A stretch of DNA of 64,000 nt from Siphonodentalium dalli (lineage: Eukaryota; Mollusca; Scaphopoda; Gadilida; Siphonodentaliidae), in contig CP136064.1 in assembly GCA_032622095.1 (NCBI GenBank), forward strand, positions 188,033,794-188,097,793. The letters run 5' to 3'. Positions 1,984-29,060 of this stretch are shown in pieces. Position numbers and translations under genes: made by a program. The notes under the pieces are model-generated. The model saw nothing but the letters and a program-made list of their open reading frames with translations. It had not been told where the DNA came from and did no database searches. Numbering within the stretch: position 1 is the first letter of the stretch; each line of letters opens with the position of its first letter.

Positions 1984-2278
1984 AAGTGAATGTTTTCTAA
2001 ATAATTAGTGTGTCTAAATGGTTTTACTGATATGACTCAGGTGATGTTTGTTATTGACACTGATGTTTGTTTTGAGCATGACTGTAGTGTATAGACTATA
2101 GTCTAGTTCTTTCAAATATATGTTATGTAGACACGAAATGTAAATTAGTGATGAATCAAGGTTATGGCATAGCTTCAGGTGGATCATAAGGAAACACATC
2201 TTCATTCTAGGTTTCATTTTCTCCTCGTAAAACTCTGTGAAGTGAGAAAAAGTATTTAGGTCACAATTTGATGTTTAC
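1984..2278 (-). other. 5' part of intron 1 of the minus-strand SRSF1-like gene
   Basis: The segment follows the donor GTAAAC (reverse strand, 2278 downward) of the SRSF1-like exon. AT-rich, with no reading frame or repeat that I recognise. Confidence 0.6.
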
Positions 2279-2436
2279 CTCGGATCTTCGTACTCGACAA
2301 ATGCAAATGGTGGGCCGCGTTTTGTTTTCAAATCGATGAATTTTATGGGACCAAATTTCCCAAATAAATCTTCAATGTCACGAGCTCGAACATCGGGTGG
2401 GAGGTTCCCAACGTATACTCTGCAATCGGCAGCCAT
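2279..2436 (-). CDS. SRSF1 (SF2/ASF)-like splicing factor, exon 1 (first RRM, partial gene)
   Basis: The minus-strand frame starts at ATG (2436-2434) and encodes 52 residues plus two bases. It begins [20 protein letters not shown] and ends in FAFVEYEDP. It carries the RNP2 motif (VYVGNL) and RNP1-type motif (PPFAFVEY) of the first RRM of SRSF1, the nuclear SR protein that binds exonic enhancers and promotes 5' splice-site choice. A donor (AG|GTAAAC) cuts the Arg codon after its second base, at the same position and phase as in the plus-strand paralog at 29473. The remaining exons lie left of the window. Protein and DNA are clearly similar to the paralog but not identical, so this is an older duplicate. 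Whether it still makes a full protein cannot be seen here. Confidence 0.85.
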
Positions 2437-13117: not shown

Positions 13118-13423
13118 GAACTTTTTTAACCTGAACAATTTTTATGATATTTTCAGCAAATTTTGTGATGAAAATGATTGCTTCGCGGAGCAGGAAATAA
13201 TCATATTGGGTGATATGAATACAAATGTGCTGAAAAAAGCTAATGGTATAAAATAAAGTAAATGCATTGTGTGGTAAAATGAATGATACATGTGATCATT
13301 TGTCACTTACACAGCTAATAAAGGATCCTACTAGGATTACTCCTCAAAGTTCTAGTGCAATTGATCTGATCTGGGTCTCAAACAAAGAAAAGATTTCTCA
13401 AGAGTGGTGTAATCGAGATTGGT

Positions 13424-13708
13424 ATGAGTGACCACTTTGTGACCTTTTGTAGTCGCAAAGTGACTAAAGAGAAATTCTTTACAAATAGAACTGTGAAAAT
13501 TCGATCAACCAAAAATTACTCTTCTGAGGATTTCTCGGAAAAATTAAAAGAGGTAGACTGGGATGAGATTTGTGTTCTTACTGATGTAAACTTAGCATGG
13601 GTGAAATTTAAAGATCAATTTATATCAGTTTTGGATCAGGTAGCTCCGATAAAGGAAATCAGGATTAAAAATCGTACTGAGGATTGGATGGATAGTAAGA
13701 TCTTATAA
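13424..13708 (+). pseudogene. LINE ORF2 fragment: end of APE endonuclease and linker
   Basis: Encodes MSDHFVTFCS followed by a linker ending in RTEDWMDSKIL. The S-D-H triad is the last conserved block of APE-type endonucleases and contains a catalytic His. The frame is broken at both ends; the preceding part (IIILGDMNTN) lies in another frame just upstream. It is a fragment of the same LINE, not a separate gene. Confidence 0.75.
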
Positions 13709-14036
13709 AGAGCTAATTTCACAAAGAGACAAGGCTTTGAAAGAGTAAGAGACAGATCAGATCAAAATCACTCCACTTTTAAGAAATTGAGAAATAAGGT
13801 ACAATATGATATAAAAAAGGCTAAGAGAGAATTTTTCAGGCAGCAATTGGAAGCTAATAAGTTTGATTCAAAAAAGCTTTGACAAAATTTAAAAAGCCTA
13901 GGAAAACCATCAAAAAAGGATAAATCTGCTAGTTCTGAGGTTGGTCTCCAATTTGAAGGTGAAACAGAACTAGTCTATGGTGAAACAAGAGTGTCTAATA
14001 AATTTAATGACTTCTTCTCCACTGTAGCATCAGATC

Positions 14037-15191
14037 TTGTACAGAAACTGCCATCTCTGGAAGTACAGTCATCTGAAGATTCTCTCAAGGCCTTTTATCA
14101 GAGCAACCTTGGGTATAACGCCAAATGAAAATGAACGTGATAGTAATCACTTTGAACTTCATGATTGCACGGAGGAGGAAATCCTAGATATTGTCCTTGA
14201 GCTGAGCAGTAACAAGGCCATTGGCCTTGACAAATTACCAGCCAGATTTTTAAAGGAAGGTATATATTACTTCTTGAAGCCACTTAAACATATCATAAAT
14301 TTGACAATATCGACAGGGATACTCCCTTGTGACCTCAAAGCAGCCAGAGTGGTTCCAATTTATAAAAAGAATGATAGATCAATAACTGGCAATTACAGGC
14401 CTGTCTCGTTTTTGAGTGTGGTTTCCAAAATAATGGAGAGATTAATTTTTAATCAGGTTTTTAAATACATCAAAGAGAAGAACCTTCTGTGTGAATATCA
14501 ATCAGGTTTCCGCCCAGTGTACTCAACCGAGACTTGCCTGATTCACTTGGTTGATAATATCAGAAAGGATATGAGCAAAGGTCTCTATACAGGAATGGTT
14601 TTGGTTGATCTACAGAAAGCTTTTGACACAGTGGACCACAACATTATGTTGGAGAAATTGAAAGCCTGTGGATTTGGTAATAACACAGTAAATTGGTTCA
14701 AAGGCTATCTTTATGATAGACCTCAGGTCGTTGATATAAATGGAACCTACTCTGGCAAAACTGAGATTACATGTGGAGTCCCTCAGGGCTAAATTCTAGG
14801 GCCGCTAATGTTTTTAATCTACATGAATGATGCAAGCAAAGCCGTTACATGTCGTCTCTTGCTATATGCTGATGACTCATGTCTCATCTATTCCCATCGG
14901 GACCCTAAGATTATTGAGAAGGTACTCACTAAAGAGCTTAACCTCCTTAACAACTGGTTTATCAGAGCAAAGCTCTCTATTCACCCGGGTAAAACTGAAT
15001 CCATCTTATTTGGAACCCGGAAGCGTCTGAAAGCAGTGGTCAACTTTTCGGTAAAATTAAATGACCACACTATTATACAGGTTGAGAAGTTTGTGTTGTC
15101 TGGTGTGATTCCCAAATATTTGACGTTCTCAATGAGAACGTCAAATATTTGGGAATCACACCAGACAACACTCTATCTGGTGAATTCATAG
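14037..15191 (+). pseudogene. LINE reverse transcriptase, interrupted
   Basis: The frame has the ordered RT blocks: SNKAIGLDKLPARFLKEG, NYRPVSFLSVVSKIMER, the palm block A (LVDLQKAFDTVDH) and block B (CGVPQG). An in-frame TAA at 14790-14792 replaces the usual Ser codon of the PQG-S-ILGPL block (TCA to TAA is one change). The frame then continues with ILGPLMFLIYMND and the catalytic YADD block C (near 14868). After about 15090 the coding sequence runs into an inverted duplication. The active-site Asp residues are preserved although the gene is dead. Confidence 0.85.
15093..15171. repeat. 39-bp perfect inverted duplication inside the LINE
   Basis: Positions 15093-15131 and 15133-15171 are perfect reverse complements around a single base at 15132 (arm starts GTGTTGTCTGGTGTGATTCC). 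The right copy carries the expected LINE reading sense (VKYLGI-type region). The left copy is therefore an inserted snap-back duplicate. Confidence 0.9.
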
Positions 15192-15298
15192 CAGTGTCAG
15201 TCCTTAACAAAGTGAACAATAGATTGAAATTCAACACTCTATCTGGTGAATTCATAGCAGTGTCAGTCCTTAACAAAGTGAACAATAGATTGAAATTC
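15167..15298 (+). repeat. 66-bp tandem duplication in the LINE coding region
   Basis: Two copies (15167-15232 and 15233-15298) of a 66-bp block duplicate 22 codons in frame (NTLSGEFIAVSVLNKVNN and four more residues). It lies directly next to the inverted duplication, so both may come from one template-switching event. Confidence 0.9.
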
Positions 15299-15377
15299 TT
15301 GTATCGAACAAGAGAATTTCTTAACAGACACACTAAGAAATTACTTGTAACTGCTCTAATCCAGTGTCATATGGATT

Positions 15378-15851
15378 ATGCCAACTTATCATGGTATTTT
15401 GGTATTGGTGCCACCTATAAAAAAAAAACTACAAGTAGCACAAAACAAAATGATTAGATTTATTTTGGATTTGAAAGCTCGTCACAGAATTACGGTAAAA
15501 GAATTTAGAGAAGTAAAATGGTTACCGGTAAAATATAGAGTTGGAAATAGAATTCTGCTACTTCTGCATAAAGCTAGAACAAGTGGCAATCCATCCTACT
15601 TGCTACAAGACTTCAATTCAGTAAATCAGATGCATACACATGATACAAGATTTAGCAGTGGAAATTACTTTGTGCCAGAGGCTAACCCCCAAATCAAGAA
15701 AACATTCATGTACAATGCAATCAAAGCATGGAACAATCTAGATAAGGGGCACAAGTTTTTTGATGATTATCCCACCTTTAAGACACTGATTAGCCTGCAT
15801 CTATTTCAAAGAATAATAGATGAGGGAGACTGTGATTTTATATACTACTGA
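15378..15851 (+). pseudogene. LINE ORF2 C-terminal region
   Basis: Encodes the domain typical of the CR1/L2-like ORF2 C-terminus: LQVAQNKMIRFILDLKAR, EVKWLPVKYRV, and a final block with IKAWNNL. It ends at the natural-looking TGA at 15849. It is in a different frame from the RT piece because of the indels around 15100-15430. Confidence 0.75.
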
Positions 15852-17028
15852 AATTGTTCTTAGCCTTGTATATTGTTTTTAGGTTGAGGTATGACTGCTG
15901 TGTGAAAATCAAATGCTGTATTGCAGGGGTGTTTAAATTGTTTCCATTTTTACTAGTTATTTTACAAATTTCTATGTTGTCCCAAGGGGGGGGGGGGGGG
16001 CAGTGGTTTCTGTGGTGAAGTAAGTGATCACTAGTGTAGCAATATGCTTGATATATATGACGATATGCGTGTATTTGGCATACCAAACTCATAAAGCTGC
16101 TAAAACCTCACAGAACCCACTGACACGCCGGGGGGTGGATAGGTATTTGGTCATAGGTAGAGTCAACAATAAGCGTAGACTTATGGAAATGGTGTTATTA
16201 GCTTTCTTTGATCCTCACTTGGCAGCCATATCTTACCATATATTATAGCTAGATATAGCTATTATATAGTCATGCATACCATTTAAATTATGCTATACTG
16301 CACAAATTAGCACATGTATACCATATATGACGACTCATAACTTATGTTGAAGCTTCTAGACTGGTATTCTTATACTTTCATGTTGTTAGGATTAAAATAT
16401 AGTCCTATAAAGCACACACATTTTCATAGTAATGTGATACATATATGTGTACCTAATATTGGTTTTTGATCTATATCCAACTGACCATATCCTTTTAAGA
16501 GTGGACAGTCTTCGTAATTGAACCAATCATAAGTATTGGGGACCACTATGGAAATAAGAGGGACATTTTTGTCCTTCTTTAAGTGTTATCCCTGGTAATG
16601 ATATATTTAATTATAGAGGCTGACCAGTATTAATAATAAAATTTATTAATATTAATACCACCGACTAACCATATTAAAACCTTATTGGTTAAATCTGTTT
16701 TTGATTATAAATACACATTTAGATAGTGAGCTCACAGAGATATGTTAATGTCGACCGCTTTTCCATCTAAAATTATTTACATTGCTTTTTCAATATGTAT
16801 ACATTTGTCAACTTTGTATAAATTGTATAGATATATATCATTGCCATTAAATAATCTAAAAAAAATAAAATATATTGTGTACACAACCAGGCCCGGGCTG
16901 TTTTAATACAGCTATGTTATACTCGTTTTGTGACCCGAACTCTGGAAGACCAAATGTCCCCCAATTAAACTATCCCAAATTCCTAGCGGTCACCGGAATT
17001 GTCCATAATTTAACATCAATTCATCAAC
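15852..17028. other. AT-rich stretch after the LINE
   Basis: Probably includes LINE 3' sequence at its start; a poly-G run lies at about 15986-16000. No gene, RNA or further repeat recognised. Confidence 0.4.
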
Positions 17029-17122
17029 ACACGACACAATCGTTTCGACGATTCTACGACCAATTCCACGATTCTGCGGCTTGACAACCACGGTGCTGCG
17101 GCAGTTCAACGATTCTGCGGCC
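17029..17122. repeat. Inverted partner of the repeat at 28967-29060
   Basis: About 94 bp with three copies of the word CGATTCTGCGG/CGATTCTACG. The reverse complement matches 28967-29060 almost base for base, so this is a dispersed repeat present on both sides of the Polinton-type element in opposite orientation. Confidence 0.8.
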
Positions 17123-20297: not shown

Positions 20298-20303
20298 GGC
20301 CTG
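20298..20303. repeat. Left target-site duplication GGCCTG
   Basis: Exact match to 28961-28966. Six bases is the duplication length known for Polinton/Maverick integrases. Confidence 0.85.
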
Positions 20304-20652
20304 AGAAGAATAGGAGTCTCGTTACCCCCACATCTAAAAATAGAATTTGTGGGTCTAAAATTGGTTGTACTAAAATATTCCCAAAATATCAAAACCCCAA
20401 AAAAAAAAATTCAAAAAATTTAAAAATTTCCAAACTTCCAAAAAATTTTAAAACCCCAAAATTTCCAAACTTCCAAATTATCAAAACCCTCCAAAATTAT
20501 TTCTCTAAAAAAAAAGTTTAAATAAAAAATTTATAACGAGTTTTCGGTTTCTGATAATCTCGATATTAAAATGTCGAATGTTAAATTATTTGCGCGTAAT
20601 ATCTTTCGTTATTTTTTTTTGTTCAAATATTTTTCAATGTATTTATTAATCG

Positions 20653-21045
20653 ATGTTTAGAAATAGCTTTATTGGACATTGTAACCATCGATATGAATGC
20701 ATACATTCCAGTGTTTTATCGGACGCAGTTCATATAATTGTCATACCTGAAAATAGACACTATTACTTTTACATAAATAATAAAGAGCGTTTATTCTTTA
20801 CACTCTCTCTATCCCATATGACAGGTGTGTATTATCGTGAATTATTGGAAGTATTGAGACTAACGGTCGAAAATTGTAATGTGAAATTACAACCCTCCAG
20901 AATGAATTGTCATATTCGCTGTACACGCAATCACACACGCGACATTGGTGGTAACAATGTGTCTTTCACACCTTTGCTTTACCAAATGAATTATATTATT
21001 TCCCCGTTCACAGTTATATGCTATTCAGAAAACATATCGATTTAA
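20653..21045 (+). CDS. Terminal-proximal ORF of unknown function, left-arm copy
   Basis: A 130-codon frame starting MFRNSFIGHCNHRYECIH, rich in Cys and His (H9, C10, H12, C16, H18 and later C/H residues). It reads inwards from the element end towards the ATPase. The arm copies differ at residue 10-11 (Asn here, Asp in the right arm). Since the arms are near-identical, its openness in both is not independent evidence of selection. No family recognised. Confidence 0.35.
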   Translation: MFRNSFIGHCNHRYECIHSSVLSDAVHIIVIPENRHYYFYINNKERLFFTLSLSHMTGVYYRELLEVLRLTVENCNVKLQPSRMNCHIRCTRNHTRDIGGNNVSFTPLLYQMNYIISPFTVICYSENISI

Positions 21046-21447
21046 TGTCTGAACAAACGGGTTAGTATCAATTAAGGTTGATAAACTGTGTCATTCACAC
21101 GATAATTAGTTAGCCAAAAACATGCATACGTCCAGGTCACTCAATTATAGAAATTGCTTCGGTGTCATTGTTATAACAACATTACGCAATAACCACTTAT
21201 CGCCCCACATTCATACTTACGCTTTGGACATTTTATCAGTTTATCACGTGATCACTAAATGTGGCAATCGGGTATCCACCGATGCCTGCAATATATTATT
21301 TATAATAATTGGACTCATTGATCTCACGTGAATAATACTCTTAGTTGTTCCAATAAAATAGTTATCAAATTCGATCACCAATAGATTTGACTGTGGAATG
21401 TAATGACCTTTAACTTATTTATCGATCTAAAGGGACACTCATTATGA

Positions 21448-21890
21448 ATGAATGTTAACAATACAAGCGCACGAATGAAGAGCGTTGAACATATACGAAA
21501 TTACTACACGAATGAATTGAACCTTGAAATTTATATTTCACATCTTACCAACAACAGATACAGACATAGTCATAGTGTTATACTATCTTACATGTACCCA
21601 TGCTATGACATCATTCGAATGGGCAATACACTCAAGGAGTTAAAGTGACACGAAACAAGGGACGTGATGTAATATTGGTGTATGAATCTTAAAGGAACAC
21701 AAGACACTCTAAAGGGACACTCATTATGAAGGAATGTTAACAATACAAGCGCACGAATGAAGAGCGTTGAACATATACGAAATTACTACACGAATGAACT
21801 GAAATTTATATTTCACATCTTACCAACAACAGATACAGACATAGTCATAGTGTTATATTATCTTACATGTACCCATGCTATGACATACTT
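21448..21890. repeat. Internal duplication in the left arm (mirrored at about 27350-27788)
   Basis: The block starting TGTTAACAATACAAGCGCAC and ending in CCATGCTATGACAT occurs twice, about 280 bp apart (from 21452 and 21734). The right arm has the same pair in mirror orientation. The duplication therefore predates the formation of the palindrome. Confidence 0.8.
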
Positions 21891-22054
21891 AAAGGGGGAT
21901 AATGCACACACGGTGTGTGGAATGTTAAAGTGACACGAGGTAAGGGACGTTATGTAATATTGGTGTGTGAATATTAAAGGAGCATTCTCGCTATACAAAC
22001 CCCCCTCCCCACTTATAGATATATAACGAAGACGAGAATAACATGTTGATGAAG

Positions 22055-22060
22055 TTTATT
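22055..22060 (-). terminator. Polyadenylation signal AATAAA for the left ATPase copy
   Basis: Reverse-strand AATAAA a few bases after the stop codon of the left ATPase copy; the mirror of the site at 27176-27181. Confidence 0.5.
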
Positions 22061-22065
22061 GAAAT

Positions 22066-23449
22066 TTAATCATTGTCTGAATCTTCGACCTTTAGATTTA
22101 CTTCTAAGAGTTTCTTGAATTTTCTCATCGCTTCATCTGCAGCCCATTCATTATTATATCCGCGTTTGGTCAGTTTGACCATTTTCTTCATGATCGTGCT
22201 ATGTATGGGTGATGTTTTCAATCGATACTTGTATTCTATTAATCGTCTATAACTTTTGAGAAACAGAACAAAATCTGTGTCGATGGTATCCTCTTTTCCC
22301 GACATGCTCTCATCTCCCGAAATGCTCTCTTCTTCTTTCACATCATTGGTGACGCGTTTCATCATACTTTTGAATGTGTCCATCTCGTTGACACATCGCG
22401 CAGCTTTCTTAAGACCGAACACCGTTCTACTACCGACGACATTACCATCTTTTGAATCTGATAGCGTTCCCCGTTCATCTTCATCTGTATCTTCTCCGAA
22501 GAGAGTTGTTTTTGTCTCGGACATAGCTCCGTGTTCATCCGGATCCTCAGTTAATTTTCGTTTTAACTTATTTTCTTGACACCAGTTTTTTACGTGTCTC
22601 TGAACATCATAATGATCTGCGAACAAAAGCCCGCATTCATTACAAGGGTACGACATGTCTTCTCGAATGTCTATGTTTTGACGGCTCTTCTTATTAATTT
22701 CATCGAACTCACCAGGTGGCCGTATGTCGTTAGTATAGTCATTATGTTGACCCTGGGGCACAATATAATTATATGTTATGCCCTTCTGTTGACCAGGGAG
22801 TTCTCTGTCCTCGTATTTCATCGCATTCTGTTGACCATGGGTCTCAGTGTCTTTTGTATGTTTTTTCATCCCATTCTGTTCATCTGGGTGTTCTCTGTCT
22901 TTTTGGAGATTATATTTCATGCCATTCCATTCACCCCTATGTTGGTTCGTGTCCTCTTTTAGTACATTCTGTCGCAGACGTAATGTGTCCGGGGTTGCGG
23001 CTTTTAAATCCACCAGTAGGTAACCGTACGGTTCAATCGTCGCTTCCGAAAACTCTCGAACCATACGCTGAGGACATTCAGGATACATCTGTCTTGATAA
23101 TGTTGAAATTAATCCCTTGTCGATTGGGTTATTGAACAATACCAAATATTGACAATTTCGTCGTTGCGTTGGATCTTTGTTGTAGTAGAAATTCTGGTTC
23201 AAACTTATCAAAGATAAGTTCAAATGGTGTCTTCCTTCGGAATGCAAATCATTAACCCTCTGGTCTTTTGATGAAGTTTGCATCAAGTCATCGAGTATAA
23301 CTAGATTTTTATACCGGGGGTTGATAAGCGAATCCAAGTTTGCTGGTATTCCTCCACTTACACATGCCGTGAATGGATGCTTGAAAATAAAATCTTCATG
23401 GACATTGGCCATTGGATCATCAAAGCAGGATGTTATGTCGCTTGGTGGC

Positions 23450-23486
<37 letters not shown>

Positions 23487-23499
23487 GGGGTGATGATAC

Positions 23500-23532
<33 letters not shown>

Positions 23533-23657
23533 GGCTGATGATACTGTTGTTGTTGTTGTTGTTGTTGTTCTGAAGGCGTGTGTTTAACTTTGATATGACG
23601 CTTCAAACTATCTTGCCAAGCATAGACACTTAAGCACTCTTCACATTGATACTTCAT
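22066..23657 (-). pseudogene. Packaging ATPase, left-arm copy, disabled
   Basis: Mirror copy of the gene at 25434-27170. It still encodes the N-terminal C2H2 finger (frame open from 23657 to 23433). The CAA repeat then switches frame (Gln run becomes Asn run), so that frame ends in SHQAT and a stop. The rest (23412-22066) is open from MANVHEDF onwards. An in-frame gap of 54 codons after TACVSG removes the Walker A loop and the following strand, leaving Walker B (VILDD). Without a P-loop it cannot bind ATP normally. A 2-3 bp match at the deletion joint suggests a microhomology deletion. Confidence 0.85.
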
Positions 23658-23837
23658 TTAACTAGTTCAGGCTGTCGTTCACAACGTCTCTTAGTGTTGT
23701 TTGTACTGGATACAAATTTATCACATTAGCTACAATACAACCTACCTATCCAAATGTCAATGCAATTATGAGTGATTTCAATATGAACACTCTATTATAT
23801 AGATATGTGTAACCTGGTGACTGACATGATGATACAG

Positions 23838-23946
23838 TTATGCACTAAATAATGGACTGCTTAACCACAGCAGAATTATAGGTAACTTTTCAGGAGTTAG
23901 TCGGAAATATGGCTTGTTGCCATTCATCGGAAAGCTCTCGCCGCCG

Positions 23947-23992
<46 letters not shown>

Positions 23993-24164
23993 GGGGGTGA
24001 TGATACTGTTGTTGTTGTTGTTGTTGTTGTTGTTGTGGCTGATGATACTGTTGTTGTTGTTGTTGTTGTTGTTGTTCTGAAGGCGTGTGTTTAACTTTGA
24101 TATGACGCTTCAAACTATCTTGCCAAGCATAGACACTTAAGCACTCTTCACATTGATACTTCAT
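23838..24164 (-). pseudogene. Extra copy of the ATPase 5' block (zinc finger + poly-Gln), left arm
   Basis: Repeats the first ~60 codons of the ATPase (C2H2 finger CEECLSVYAWQDSLKRH, then Gln runs split by YHQP and YHHP). It then reads into sequence that is upstream DNA in the neighbouring copy (HGGESFPMNGNKPYFRL...), ending at 23838. It is part of a tandem duplication of about 490-510 bp that includes the upstream region. It could be expressed as a small Gln-rich finger protein, but most likely it is a by-product of the duplication. Confidence 0.6.
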
Positions 24165-24453
24165 TTAACTAGTTCAGGCTGTCGTTCACAACGTCTCTTA
24201 GTGTTGTTTGTACTGGATACAAATTTATCACATTAGCTACAATACAACCTACCTATCCAAATGTCAATGCAATTATGAGTGATTTCAATATGAACACTCT
24301 ATTATATAGATATGTGTAACCTGGTGACTGACATGATGATACAGTTATGCACTAAATAATGGACTGCTTAACCACAGCAGAATTATAGGTAACTTTTCAG
24401 GAGTTAGTCGGAAATATGGCTTGTTGCCATTCATCGGAAAGCTCTCGCCGCCG

Positions 24454-24487
<34 letters not shown>

Positions 24488-24488
24488 G

Positions 24489-24603
24489 CCGGCGGCGGCG
24501 GCATTGCGGTATTTTACTGCGGCGGCGGTGCCGTCGCCGCCGCCGGGGTCCGCCGCCGGCGGACCCCGTAGTAAAATACTGCAATGCCGCCTCCGCCGGC
24601 ACC

Positions 24604-24607
<4 letters not shown>
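24489..24607. repeat. GC-rich centre of the palindrome
   Basis: The core GGGGTCCGCCG (24545-24555), one base at 24556, then CGGCGGACCCC (24557-24567) is perfectly symmetrical. It is embedded in GCC/CGG triplets that contrast sharply with the AT-rich arms. Outer halves (GGCATTGCGGTATTTTACTG and its partner CAGTATTTTACTACGG read on the other strand) match imperfectly. Runs of GTT to the left and of ACC then AAC to the right border the centre. Confidence 0.85.
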
Positions 24608-24655
<48 letters not shown>

Positions 24656-24944
24656 CGGCGGCGAGAGCTTTCCGATGAATGGCAACAAGCCATATTTCCG
24701 ACTAACTCCTGAAAAGTTACCTATAATTCTGCTGTGGTTAAGCAGTCCATTATTTAGTGCATAACTGTATCATCATGTCAGTCACCAGGTTACACATATC
24801 TATATAATAGAGTGTTCATATTGAAATCACTCATAATTGCATTGACATTTGGATAGGTAGGTTGTATTGTAGCTAATGTGATAAATTTGTATCCAGTACA
24901 AACAACACTAAGAGACGTTGTGAACGACAGCCTGAACTAGTTAA

Positions 24945-25110
24945 ATGAAGTATCAATGTGAAGAGTGCTTAAGTGTCTATGCTTGGCAAGATAGTTTGAA
25001 GCGTCATATCAAAGTTAAACACACGCCTTCAGAACAACAACAACAACAACAACAACAGTATCATCAGCCACAACAACAACAACAACAACAACAACAGTAT
25101 CATCACCCCC

Positions 25111-25144
<34 letters not shown>

Positions 25145-25253
25145 CGGCGGCGAGAGCTTTCCGATGAATGGCAACAAGCCATATTTCCGACTAACTCCTG
25201 AAAAGTTACCTATAATTCTGCTGTGGTTAAGCAGTCCATTATTTAGTGCATAA
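24945..25253 (+). pseudogene. Extra copy of the ATPase 5' block (zinc finger + poly-Gln), right arm
   Basis: Mirror of 23838-24164: ATG, C2H2 finger, Gln runs, then HGGESFPMNGNKPYFRL and a stop at 25251. It lies 489 bp upstream of the true start at 25434, in the same orientation, and duplicates both the upstream region and the first exon-like block. It can be read as an independent 102-codon frame; whether it is expressed is unknown. Confidence 0.6.
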
Positions 25254-25433
25254 CTGTATCATCATGTCAGTCACCAGGTTACACATATCTATATAATAGA
25301 GTGTTCATATTGAAATCACTCATAATTGCATTGACATTTGGATAGGTAGGTTGTATTGTAGCTAATGTGATAAATTTGTATCCAGTACAAACAACACTAA
25401 GAGACGTTGTGAACGACAGCCTGAACTAGTTAA
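25144..25433 (+). promoter_or_regulatory. Upstream region of the ATPase gene, present four times in the element
   Basis: About 290 bp between the CAA tract and the start codon, including a TATA-like TATATAAT at 25289-25296 about 140 bp before the ATG. The same block is repeated at 24655-24944 and, in mirror orientation, at about 23660-23945 and 24165-24457. The conserved position ahead of each zinc-finger start suggests a promoter; this is inference. Confidence 0.4.
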
Positions 25434-27170
25434 ATGAAGTATCAATGTGAAGAGTGCTTAAGTGTCTATGCTTGGCAAGATAGTTTGAAGCGTCATATCA
25501 AAGTTAAACACACGCCTTCAGAACAACAACAACAACAACAACAGTATCATCAGCCACAACAACAACAACAACAACAACAACAGTATCATCACCCCCAACA
25601 ACAACAACAACAACAACAACAACAGCCACCAAGCGACATAACATCCTGCTTTGATGATCCAATGGCCAATGTCCATGAAGATTTTATTTTCAAGCATCCA
25701 TTCACGGCATGTGTAAGTGGACCGACATCTTGTGGTAAGACATACTTCGTGAAAACCTTACTACAAAAGTCTGCCTCAAAAATATCACCCGCACCTGACA
25801 GAATAATATGGTTTTATAAATATTGGCAGCCCCTATATGACGAATTAAAGTATACCGTCACCCCTCAGGTCAACTTTATACGAGGAATACCAGCAAACTT
25901 GGATTCGCTTATCAACCCCCGGTATAAAAATCTAGTTATACTCGATGACTTGATGCAAACTTCATCAAAAGACCAGAGGGTTAATGATTTGCATTCCGAA
26001 GGAAGTCACCATTTGAACTTATCTTTGATAAGTTTGAACCAGAATTTCTACTACAACAAAGATCCAACGCAACGACGAAATTGTCAATATTTGGTATTGT
26101 TCAATAACCCAATCGACAAGGGATTAATTTCAACATTATCAAGACAGATGTATCCTGAATGTCCTCAGCGTATGGTTCGAGAGTTTTCGGAAGCGACGAG
26201 TGAACCGTACGGTTACCTACTGGTGGATTTAAAAGCCGCAACCCCGGACACATTACGTCTGCGACAGAATGTACTAAAAGTAGACACGAACCAACATAGG
26301 GGTGAATGGAATGGCATGAAATATAATCTCCAAAAAGACAGAGAACACCCAGATGAACAGAATGGGATGAAAAAACATACAAAAGACACTGAGACCCAGG
26401 GTCAACAGAATGCGATGAAATACGAGGACAGAGAACTCCCTGGTCAACAGAAGGGCATAACATATAATTATATTGTGCCCCAGGGTCAACATAATGACTA
26501 TACTAACGACATACGGCCACCTGGTGAGTTCGATGAAATTAATAAGAAGAGCCGTCAAAACATAGACATTCGAGAAGACATGTCGTACCCTTGTAATGAA
26601 TGCGGGCTTTTGTTCGCAGATCATTATGATGTTCAGAGACACGTAAAAAACTGGTGTCAAGAAAATAAGTTAAAACGAAAATTAACTGAGGATCCGGATG
26701 AACACGGAGCTATGTCCGAGACAAAAACAACTCTCTTCGGAGAAGATACAGATGAAGATGAACGGGGAACGCTATCAGATTCAAAAGATGGTAATGTCGT
26801 CGGTAGTAGAACGGTGTTCGGTCTTAAGAAAGCTGCGCGATGTGTCAACGAGATGGACACATTCAAAAGTATGATGAAACGCGTCACCAATGATGTGAAA
26901 GAAGAAGAGAGCATTTCGGGAGATGAGAGCATGTCGGGAAAAGAGGATACCATCGACACAGATTTTGTTCTGTTTCTCAAAAGTTATAGACGATTAATAG
27001 AATACCAGTATCGATTGAAAACATCACCCATACATAACACGATCATGAAGAAAATGGTCAAACTGACCAAACGCGGATATAATAATGAATGGGCTGCAGA
27101 TGAAGCGATGAGAAAATTCAAGAAACTCTTAGAAGTAAATCTAAAGGTCGAAGATTCAGACAATGATTAA
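25434..27170 (+). CDS. Polinton-type packaging ATPase fused to zinc fingers
   Basis: A 578-residue protein. Residues 1-26 form a C2H2 finger (C5, C8, H21, H26). Residues 31-64 are Gln runs separated by YHQP and YHHP. Residues about 85-280 form an A32/FtsK-HerA-type ATPase with Walker A GPTSCGKT (96-103), Walker B LVILDD (167-172), a polar SLNQNFY segment (200-206) and the family-typical ending PYGYLLVDLK. In related viruses and Polintons this enzyme pumps DNA into the capsid. Residues about 290-350 are degenerate repeats around G-Q-Q-N-G-M-K-Y. A second, C2HC-type finger follows (C387, C390, H403, C408), then an acidic stretch and a helical C-terminus. The chosen ATG begins the finger; AATAAA lies 6 bases after the stop. 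Intact, unlike its mirror copy. Polinton ATPases are usually shorter, so the finger and C-terminal parts are notable additions. Confidence 0.8.
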   Translation: MKYQCEECLSVYAWQDSLKRHIKVKHTPSEQQQQQQQYHQPQQQQQQQQQYHHPQQQQQQQQQQPPSDITSCFDDPMANVHEDFIFKHPFTACVSGPTSCGKTYFVKTLLQKSASKISPAPDRIIWFYKYWQPLYDELKYTVTPQVNFIRGIPANLDSLINPRYKNLVILDDLMQTSSKDQRVNDLHSEGSHHLNLSLISLNQNFYYNKDPTQRRNCQYLVLFNNPIDKGLISTLSRQMYPECPQRMVREFSEATSEPYGYLLVDLKAATPDTLRLRQNVLKVDTNQHRGEWNGMKYNLQKDREHPDEQNGMKKHTKDTETQGQQNAMKYEDRELPGQQKGITYNYIVPQGQHNDYTNDIRPPGEFDEINKKSRQNIDIREDMSYPCNECGLLFADHYDVQRHVKNWCQENKLKRKLTEDPDEHGAMSETKTTLFGEDTDEDERGTLSDSKDGNVVGSRTVFGLKKAARCVNEMDTFKSMMKRVTNDVKEEESISGDESMSGKEDTIDTDFVLFLKSYRRLIEYQYRLKTSPIHNTIMKKMVKLTKRGYNNEWAADEAMRKFKKLLEVNLKVEDSDND

Positions 27171-27175
27171 ATTTC

Positions 27176-27181
27176 AATAAA
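27176..27181 (+). terminator. Polyadenylation signal AATAAA of the ATPase gene
   Basis: AATAAA six bases after the stop codon at 27168-27170, followed by AT-rich DNA. Placement right after the stop is typical of compact viral-type genes. Confidence 0.6.
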
Positions 27182-28190
27182 CTTCATCAACATGTTATTC
27201 TCGTCTTCGTTATATATCTATAAGTGGGGAGGGGGGTTTGTATAGCGAGAATGCTCCTTTAATATTCACACACCAATATTACATAACGTCCCTTACCTCG
27301 TGTCACTTTAACATTCCACACACCGTGTGTGCATTATCCCCCTTTAAGTATGTCATAGCATGGGTACATGTAAGATAATATAACACTATGACTATGTCTG
27401 TATCTGTTGTTGGTAAGATGTGAAATATAAATTTCAGTTCATTCGTGTAGTAATTTCGTATATGTTCAACGCTCTTCATTCGGGCGCTTGTATTGTTAAC
27501 ATTCCTTCATAATGAGTGTCCCGTTAGAGTGTCTTGTGTTCCTTTAAGATTCATACACCAATATTACATCACGTCCCTTGTTTCGTGTCACTTTAACTCC
27601 TTGAGTGTATTGCCCATTCGAATGATGTCATAGCATGGGTACATGTAAGATAGTATAACACTATGACTATGTCTGTATCTGTTGTTGGTAAGATGTGAAA
27701 TATAAATTTCAAGGTTCAATTCATTCGTGTAGTAATTTCGTATATGTTCAACGCTCTTCATTCGTGCGCTTGTATTGTTAACATTCATTCATAATGAGTG
27801 TCCCTTTAGATCGATAAATAAGTTAAAGGTCATTACATTCCACAGTCAAATCTATTGGTGATCGAATTTGATAACTATTTTATTGGAACAACTAAGAGTA
27901 TTATTCACGTGAGATCAATGAGTCCAATTATTATAAATAATATATTGCAGGCATCGGTGGATACCCGATTGCCACATTTAGTGATCACGTGATAAACTGA
28001 TAAAATGTCCAAAGCGTAAGTATGAATGTGGGGCGATAAGTGGTTATTGCGTAATGTTGTTATAACAATGACACCGAAGCAATTTCTATAATTGAGTGAC
28101 CTGGACGTATGCATGTTTTTGGCTAACTAATTATCGTGTGAATGACACAGTTTATCAACCTTAATTGATACTAACCCGTTTGTTCAGACA

Positions 28191-28583
28191 TTAAATCGAT
28201 ATGTTTTCTGAATAGCATATAACTGTGAACGGGGAAATAATATAATTCATTTGGTAAAGCAAAGGTGTGAAAGACACATTGTTACCACCAATGTCGCGTG
28301 TGTGATTGCGTGTACAGCGAATATGACAATTCATTCTGGAGGGTTGTAATTTCACATTACAATTTTCGACCGTTAGTCTCAATACTTCCAATAATTCACG
28401 ATAATACACACCTGTCATATGGGATAGAGAGAGTGTAAAGAATAAACGCTCTTTATTATTTATGTAAAAGTAATAGTGTCTATTTTCAGGTATGACAATT
28501 ATATGAACTGCGTCCGATAAAACACTGGAATGTATGCATTCATATCGATGGTCACAATGTCCAATAAAGCTATTTCTAAACAT
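28191..28583 (-). CDS. Terminal-proximal ORF of unknown function, right-arm copy
   Basis: Mirror of 20653-21045: 130 codons on the minus strand, reading inwards from the right end, so convergent with the ATPase gene. It has many Cys and His residues. The only residue difference noticed from the left copy is Asp for Asn near residue 10. No motif or membrane segment recognised, and the function is unknown. Two shorter frames (27905-28114 and 27588-27788, minus) lie between it and the ATPase and are equally unplaced. Confidence 0.35.
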   Translation of the reverse strand: MFRNSFIGHCDHRYECIHSSVLSDAVHIIVIPENRHYYFYINNKERLFFTLSLSHMTGVYYRELLEVLRLTVENCNVKLQPSRMNCHIRCTRNHTRDIGGNNVSFTPLLYQMNYIISPFTVICYSENISI

Positions 28584-28704
28584 CGATTAATAAATACATT
28601 GAAAAATATTTGAACAAAAAAAAATAACGAAAGATATTACGCGCAAATAATTTAACATTCGACATTTTAATATCGAGATTATCAGAAACCGAAAACTCGT
28701 TATA

Positions 28705-28880
28705 AATTTTTTATTTAAACTTTTTTTTTAGAGAAATAATTTTGGAGGGTTTTGATAATTTGGAAGTTTGGAAATTTTGGGGTTTTAAAATTTTTTGGAA
28801 GTTTGGAAATTTAGAAATTTTTTGGAAAAAATAAATTTTGAAATTTTTGAAATTTTTTTTTTTGGGTTTTGATATTTTGG
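28705..28880. repeat. Subterminal A/T-rich short repeats (mirrored at about 20385-20520)
   Basis: Degenerate repeats of TTTGGAAGTTTGGAAATTTT with T-runs. The two arms differ here more than elsewhere, by small indels in homopolymers, which is expected for slippage-prone DNA. Confidence 0.6.
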
Positions 28881-28960
28881 GAATATTTTAGTACAACCAA
28901 TTTTAGACCCACAAATTCTATTTTTAGATGTGGGGGTAACGAGACTCCTATTCTTCTTCT

Positions 28961-28966
28961 GGCCTG
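28961..28966. repeat. Right target-site duplication GGCCTG
   Basis: Exact match to 20298-20303, directly outside the right end of the mirror element. Confidence 0.85.
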
Positions 28967-29060
28967 GTCGCAGAATCGTTAAATTGCCGCAGCACCGTGG
29001 TTGTCAAGCCGCAGAATCGTGGAATTGGTCGCAGAATCGTCGAAACGATTGTGCCGTGTG
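28967..29060. repeat. Dispersed CCGCAGAATCGT repeat next to the element
   Basis: Three spaced copies of (C/T)CGCAGAATCGT. The block is the reverse complement of 17029-17122 with only a few changes. Confidence 0.8.

Follow-up and report, generated by a model that had tools for sequence, protein, structure and literature searches.

A 64,000-nucleotide stretch of the genome of the scaphopod mollusc Siphonodentalium dalli (GenBank assembly GCA_032622095.1, contig CP136064.1, positions 188,033,794 to 188,097,793 of the forward strand; hereafter the window) contains an element of 8,657 bp that is palindromic over its whole length, and this element proved to be one of a family, since at least 20 similar palindromes are present in the same genome, most of them with one packaging gene per arm. 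The family is characterized by mirrored arms, 6-bp target-site duplications, ends of the Polinton type and a conserved asymmetric tip at the centre, and arm-specific differences that have been inherited are nearly absent from it. We consider it probable, at roughly 0.6, that these elements are non-autonomous, Polinton-ended satellites that are transmitted as a palindrome, in which two ATPase-bearing arms are joined at a T-shaped hairpin.

The palindrome of the window and its dispersed family

The features that delimit the element were established by self-comparison of the window and are as follows:

20304..28960, unstranded, whole palindromic element, 8,657 bp
20298..20303, unstranded, left target-site duplication GGCCTG
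28961..28966, unstranded, right target-site duplication GGCCTG
20304..20309, plus strand, left end motif (AGA)2
28952..28960, minus strand, right end motif (TCT)3, i.e. (AGA)3, one unit more than on the left

The original prediction, made from the letters of the window alone, had described a palindrome with GGCCTG directly outside it, and this structure is real: the mirrored match ends precisely at the element boundaries (20304 and 28960), the flanks are unmirrored, and a 6-mer is repeated at the GGCCTG-to-GGCCTG spacing at 20 of 55,331 window positions. The ends of the element read AGAAGAATAGG...CCTATTCTTCTTCT. Its arms, of 4,252 nt (left) and 4,404 nt (right), had been taken for reverse complements around the single base 24556; they are near-identical, with 0.3-0.5% substitutions, indels and a 162-bp deletion between them, and that base is the dyad of the innermost hairpin, the true centre being an asymmetric T-shaped tip at 24487-24601. 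Outside the centre the arms differ by 14 substitutions (0.34% of 4,139 aligned sites; 0.46% in the outer ~3.05 kb), with 3 more in the centre itself. The indels comprise one of 25 bp near the end, the 162-bp in-frame deletion, which lies in the left arm, a difference of ~24 bp adjoining the centre, and several triplet-repeat indels in TTG/CAA runs.

A search of the animal's own genome (2.23 Gb, 9 contigs) with the left arm as query, in which 25 of 5,038 candidates were scored, returned 137 matches from these 25, mostly as facing pairs. The window element and the loci L011 to L030 make up 21 arm-ascertained loci, while L042 and L043 were chosen by their ends alone. Mirrored arms were found at all 20 loci picked by arm similarity (L011-L030), including three in which one arm is partly lost (L019, L020 and L021) and three that are incomplete or partly unreadable (L026, L028 and L029). 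L025 and L030 stem from a segmental duplication and share one palindrome insertion together with its left flank, the right end being absent from L030. The two loci chosen by ends are mirrored over 1.5 kb at the termini at 99.1% (L042; 6.5 kb) and over 2.2 kb at 99.5% (L043; 7.1 kb).

Perfect 6-bp target duplications flank 19 of the 20 two-ended elements, the window element counted (GGCCTG, CATGGT, TATATG, GTTAAC, TATATT, CATACC, GAAGAG, CATATA (twice), TAGAAA, GTTATT, ACTAGG, ACCTTC, ATTGGT, CGCACG, ATTCTC, CATATC, GGCATT and ATGGTC), and the duplication of the remaining one, L024, agrees at five of six positions (AACGTC/GACGTC). These elements were inserted independently of one another, as palindromes already formed. 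Two AGA units stand at all readable ends of 18 elements, except for the three at the right end of the window element.

Differences between the arms are hardly ever inherited

Median divergence in the ATPase region was 0.22% between the arms of one element and 0.98% between elements, and in the end region 0.51% and 5.56%, respectively (two over-short rows of 41 and two over-long rows of 40 were dropped). The 26 terminal bases occur in 17 kinds among the 18 two-ended arm-ascertained elements, and both ends agree in 18/18, the extra AGA of the window element aside.

Variants were sorted in 17 elements with both arms, L030 and gap-rich columns being left out. In the ATPase region, (i) 46 variants are present in both arms, 20 of them in one element and 26 in several, (ii) 79 are present in one arm of one element each, (iii) a single variant is found in one arm of two elements, and (iv) 5 are mixed. 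In the end region, variants present in both arms number 30 (one element) and 89 (several elements), and those present in one arm 55 (one element) and 2 (two elements). Inter-arm differences are hardly ever inherited. Each living copy carries 1-11 one-arm mutations in the ATPase region, and a transposing parent would therefore usually have had some; that relatives almost never share them implies equalisation of the arms during transmission.

A conserved asymmetric tip at the centre

The centre of the window element is occupied by a single structure:

24487..24601, unstranded, central T-shaped hairpin tip (A stem, 24487-24518 / 24570-24601; B arm, 24519-24543; C arm, 24544-24568)

Its stem reads ...ATTGCGGTATTTTACT / AGTAAAATACTGCAAT... 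and is crowned by two hairpins, of which B is CGG-rich and C is composed of GGGGTCCGCC-GCC-GGCGGACCCC. The tip was scored at 17 of the 21 loci (L015, L018, L025 and L028, with a centre that is different, partial or unreadable, were left out), and the same asymmetric A/B/C fold was found at 15 of these 17; it is incomplete in L020 and L021, and the tip sequence is also present in L042. On the left, ATTGCGGTATTTTACT is identical in 15/15 tips, and opposite it lies a G.T wobble in 11/15 and a G-C pair in 4/15. The stems hardly vary in the alignment, so paired changes say little. The tip adjoins two quite different inner flanks, that of the window type and that of L022, L023 and L030. The asymmetry of the tip is inherited, whereas that of the arms is not.

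B lies to the left of C at 10 and to the right at 7 of the 17 loci, as random insertion would give; a flip-flop argument from these orientations was dropped, since with identical arms the orientation reflects the direction of insertion only. The centre pattern had no match in viral contigs. It matched two bacterial contigs, of which the one examined is bacterial sequence with no palindromic tip and looks like a chance match.

A packaging ATPase gene in each arm

The arms of the window element carry one copy each of a predicted gene:

25434..27170, plus strand, C2H2-A32 packaging ATPase, right copy, intact frame of 578 aa
22066..23412, minus strand, C2H2-A32 packaging ATPase, left copy, broken (162 bp including the P-loop deleted in frame)

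The two copies differ by seven substitutions that alter six codons, all of them non-synonymously, as would be expected if they decayed once the element had inserted. Both arms contain ATPase frames at 18/21 loci, and at 15/21 the frame has survived in full length in one arm or both. The protein matches Pox_A32 with 25.5 bits (curated cut-off 22.8) and holds two C2H2 fingers, whose scores are slightly under their own cut-offs. Its predicted structure has a mean predicted local distance difference test score (pLDDT) of 71 and a predicted template-modelling score (pTM) of 0.45, and fold searches with it gave as top matches viral A32 packaging ATPases and the solved B204 packaging NTPase of the archaeal virus STIV (Sulfolobus turreted icosahedral virus). 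On the strength of the Pox_A32 and fold matches, we read the gene as that of a viral genome-packaging ATPase.

Among the best 120 of 200 protein relatives, the named hosts are bivalves (Pecten, Mizuhopecten, Solemya, Pinctada, Mytilus, Ruditapes, Mya and Mercenaria), with the exception of one metagenome bin; the relative from this bin (P0037, 42% identity) is filed as Sedimenticola and is probably animal DNA in a symbiont bin. By these matches the animal would probably be a bivalve or a mollusc close to them. Some of the listed relatives are gene models fused to a Polinton-type integrase (P0067) or to an adenovirus-type protease (P0071). No relatives were found in viral contigs, with the single protein or an alignment as query, or in GTDB contigs, and the end 23-mer had no match in viral contigs. 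Coding variants present in both arms comprised 26 non-synonymous, 13 synonymous and 0 stop changes, and those in one arm of one element 47 non-synonymous or stop and 10 synonymous changes (Fisher p = 0.09, with 10 variants of other classes left out).

Relation to the full-size Polintons of the same genome

When the first 100 bp of the element were used as query, 40 matches were scored among 1,590 candidates, a first-look total that suggests a very large superfamily. Three facing pairs of ends lie 16.0-16.7 kb apart (C4:200048587-200065281, C3:83482599-83498605 and C1:3943385-3959488) and are probably full-size Polintons. The sampled pieces of these 16-kb Polintons are not mirrored. In the pieces from one half, L039 and L040, integrase frames occur in both (rve and Chromo domains in the Pfam run on L039), together with an adenovirus-type protease (Peptidase_C5, under the Pfam cut-off) and a 230-aa A32-like ATPase, and the other half encodes a type-B DNA polymerase (PolB) in two frames (DNA_pol_B_2). 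A 421-aa frame, to which Pfam gave no match, we take to be the major capsid protein. Near the middle of the element the 16-kb Polintons also encode a 185-aa homologue of the TATA-binding protein in two matched stretches (L039:7186-7743, minus strand; L040:241-798, plus strand; Pfam TBP E = 1.6e-31 for the L039 copy).

The part that the window element has in common with these Polintons is confined to its ends and includes a small open frame:

20304..21221, plus strand, left terminal region common with the 16-kb Polintons (94% to L039, 91% to L040)
28015..28957, minus strand, right terminal region common with the 16-kb Polintons (96% to L039, 93% to L040)
20653..21045, plus strand, 130-aa open frame in the left end region, with a counterpart in L039
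28191..28583, minus strand, mirror copy of the 130-aa open frame

Protein relatives of the 130-aa frame were sought and none was found. The ends of the palindrome thus match those of canonical Polintons of the same genome over ~0.94 kb at 91-96%, and beyond this the arms are unlike the sampled Polinton pieces, save for a distant homology between the two ATPases (31% identity over 206 residues). With so little in common, and with a different and intact ATPase, a Polinton that has lost its middle was rejected as the source of the palindrome, which is better regarded, on these comparisons, as a separate non-autonomous lineage with Polinton ends. The end region of L039 differs by 1.3% from the nearest one, that of L011, and is thereby closer to it than the palindromes are to one another (median 5.6%), so that ends have been exchanged or shared. 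A further locus, L033 (C4:88739120, an element of ~10.2 kb by its end matches), is a mosaic that is L039-like past the start of the ATPase frame and continues as palindrome-arm sequence.

When ten proteins or protein pieces from the 16-kb Polintons were compared by tblastn (E <= 1e-4) with the 21 arm-ascertained loci, the ATPase alone matched, and did so in each; the same ten queries recover their source Polintons. The two PolB pieces of the 16-kb relative matched 0/21 of these loci and neither L042 nor L043, integrase matched 0/23 loci, and protease and the capsid-like 421-aa frame matched 0/21, with a 20-residue scrap of the latter in L042 only. The readable part of L043 matched none of the ten queries. 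Frames of at least 150 aa other than the ATPase were seen at 7/21 loci, mostly in flanks, centres or unreadable parts. With no match to PolB, integrase, protease or the capsid-like frame at the arm-ascertained loci, the palindrome family appears to be a non-autonomous derivative of Polintons.

Several elements of the first interpretation of the window copy are borne out by these data. Polinton-type ends and a 6-bp duplication had been claimed, and agree with the ~0.94-kb terminal match and the 19/20 perfect duplications; insertion as a ready-made palindrome is consistent with a dispersed mirrored family whose members have their own 6-bp duplications, and other palindromic copies with different target duplications do exist. 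An integrase acting in trans would indeed be needed, as none lies inside the element, and putatively autonomous Polintons with closely similar ends are present in the genome. What does not hold is the notion of a single defective genome frozen in its host, since the copy belongs to a dispersed family of which every relative examined is mirrored, and that of a simply collapsed Polinton, since the arms past ~0.94 kb are unmatched in the sampled pieces and bear an intact frame of a different ATPase. Of the stretch 20304-24500, the sampled 16-kb Polintons match only that terminal ~0.94 kb, apart from the distant ATPase homology.

Other features of the window

Three tandem structures lie within the arms:

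21426..21984, plus strand, older tandem pair, 282-bp spacing, copies 86.6% alike (mirrored at 27252-27810)
23450..24488, unstranded, left-arm tandem duplication, 507-bp spacing, comprising the ATPase start and upstream region, with TTG-repeat borders
24612..25624, unstranded, right-arm tandem duplication, 489-bp spacing

The younger tandem duplication of ~500 bp is present once per arm, and its 377-bp unique part is identical in 4/4 copies. Outside the element, a repeat of ~95 bp (28966-29060) begins on the final base of the right target-site duplication and has an inverted copy 12 kb off (17028-17122). An empty insertion site was sought in the window and none was found, no copy of the ~95-bp repeat joining the left flank. 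Two head-to-head exons, at about 29473 (plus strand) and 2277-2427 (minus strand), resemble in translation what we take to be the start of an SRSF1-type splicing factor, and the palindrome lies ~0.5 kb upstream of one start codon of this pair. Reverse transcriptase frames occupy 13370-15851; the relatives listed for one frame carry PF00078, and the region is presumably a decayed non-LTR (long terminal repeat) retrotransposon.

Discussion

Beyond the integrated anatomy, we infer a replication cycle in which (i) the PolB and terminal protein of a Polinton would start synthesis at the (AGA)n end, (ii) a palindromic dimer would extrude its central hairpin and be resolved into one-arm, hairpin-capped monomers, (iii) copying from the open end round the hairpin would restore the palindrome, its two arms identical and its asymmetric tip unaltered, (iv) a Polinton integrase would insert this palindrome in trans with a 6-bp duplication, and (v) the satellite's own ATPase would assist in packaging it into the capsid of a Polinton. 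A helper Polinton would thus supply polymerase, integrase and capsid. The one-arm stage is proposed as the simplest process that equalises the arms and yet keeps the tip asymmetric. The (AGA)n ends fit the slide-back or jump-back initiation described for protein-primed replication (PMC3480470). In a bolder form, to which we would give rather less than an even chance, the satellite would exist as a linear monomer of ~4.3 kb, protein-primed at one end and closed by the T-shaped hairpin at the other, give rise to a ~8.6-kb integrating palindromic dimer that is resolved at the hairpin, and be packaged in a helper capsid with its own zinc-finger ATPase.

A number of observations weigh against the satellite reading. 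An extrachromosomal form, a terminal protein, a capsid and a resolution enzyme were none of them observed. For several elements the ATPase region of some outside arm matches as closely as that of the partner arm, so that the closer similarity within elements holds for medians. Of the end-region variants, 31 are mixed, and L028, with arms 2.8% apart in this region, is involved in 21 of these. The arm differences of the window element concentrate near its end, where 4 of the 14 substitutions and the 25-bp indel fall in the outer ~125 bp (p = 0.002); they sit within an A-rich repeat. The tip consists of GC-rich triplet repeats and might belong to a repeat scattered through the host genome, and the coding variants give no more than a hint of purifying selection on the ATPase as the family propagates. 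The arms of L042 are unequal in length from the tip, its ATPase is reduced to a 75%-identical fragment, and it carries two scraps of Polinton genes (20 residues of the capsid-like frame and 34 of another); by its sequence it is probably a composite or rearranged relative. L043 has no ATPase in its readable part and, taken with the fragment in L042, shows that the full gene is not in every palindrome.

The same anatomy might belong to an ordinary palindromic duplex, that is, a non-autonomous transposon with long terminal inverted repeats, whose arms are kept alike by chromosomal gene conversion with no one-arm stage. Conversion works well, as is known of other palindromes, where inverted arms lie within a few kb of each other, and the mixed variants (ATPase region, 5; end region, 31) fit partial conversion. 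However, 79 one-arm variants persist unconverted in the 17 elements, at 1 to 11 each; if parents bore such differences at transposition, relatives should have many of them in common, and we saw 1 (ATPase region) and 2 (end region). The inheritance of the central asymmetry, but not of that of the arms, also speaks against conversion, which we regard as unlikely. Rather less probable again is a protein-primed linear genome with no dedicated hairpin resolution, in which displaced strands would self-fold, mismatch repair would equalise the arms and the tip would merely persist from the initial fold-back. A single-stranded palindrome self-folds in any case, and equality of the arms needs no resolvase, but the same mismatch repair should also erase the G.T wobble kept in 11/15 tip stems, and the same tip is found on two inner flank types.

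An origin after insertion, by repair of a break in a normal Polinton through copying of one arm via the terminal inverted repeats, with the target duplication kept, was a serious rival until the dispersed family came to light. It would account for the clustering of the window differences in the outer 125 bp and for ends that differ by one AGA unit, L042 with its unequal arms and Polinton-gene scraps could be such a case, and fold-back priming at short inverted repeats is described as established for chromosomes (PMC10622511). That independent events should have produced mirrored arms at 20/20 arm-similar loci, the same asymmetric tip in 15/21 and the same ATPase arm is nevertheless improbable, and the sampled Polinton pieces have only ~0.94 kb in common with the arms; we now hold this origin to be very unlikely. 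An assembly artefact from fold-back reads or mis-joined haplotypes is scarcely credible: single-molecule reads are known to give rise to spurious long palindromes, but here the mirroring breaks off right at perfect 6-bp duplications in 19/20 two-ended elements, and the arms carry private mutations.

For the satellite reading, the nearest parallel is offered by the yeast killer plasmid pGKL1, a protein-primed PolB replicon whose F1/F2 derivatives are a palindromic linear form and a one-arm hairpin form with part of the genes; these are cytoplasmic plasmids of laboratory yeast, however, and are neither integrated nor a dispersed family. Symmetric or palindromic defective genomes of adenovirus are mirror-image linear DNAs with a protein-primed origin at both ends, but are transient, whereas the palindrome described here is inherited with a conserved centre. 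The terminal hairpins of parvoviruses, such as the inverted terminal repeat (ITR) of adeno-associated virus (AAV), and the telomere junctions of poxviruses have a T-shaped tip with two small arms and an imperfect stem at the dyad of a palindromic dimer. The conserved, self-complementary and imperfect tip at the dyad in 15/17 examined palindromes resembles these in shape, and, in contrast to those systems, no Rep or resolvase was recognised in the palindromic element. Non-autonomous long-TIR (terminal inverted repeat) and fold-back transposons consist almost entirely of inverted repeat and are moved in trans; the palindrome differs from them in that it encodes a viral-type packaging ATPase and uses Polinton ends.

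With Polintons (also called Mavericks) the palindrome has in common the 6-bp target duplication, the repeated end motif, an A32-type packaging ATPase and, in this genome, the end region with its 130-aa frame. It differs from them in that tblastn found no PolB, integrase or protease, and in that the entire element is one inverted repeat with arms of ~4.3 kb. The terminal inverted repeats reported for intact vertebrate Mavericks measure 46-1,447 bp, and the end motifs given there, (AGT)2 and (AG)3, are comparable to the (AGA)2 of the palindromes (PMC8097293). The same source presents Mavericks as virus-like, with particles unobserved (PMC8097293). How Mavericks replicate is likewise known by inference. 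No description of palindromic Polintons appeared in the titles and abstracts of the literature searched, subscription papers lying mostly outside its scope. If our reading is correct, a palindromic satellite whose arms are re-equalised at transmission would be a trace, left in an animal genome, of linear replication that starts at the ends, and the family would represent a satellite-helper system resident in such a genome that relies on a single packaging gene and has a testable hairpin.

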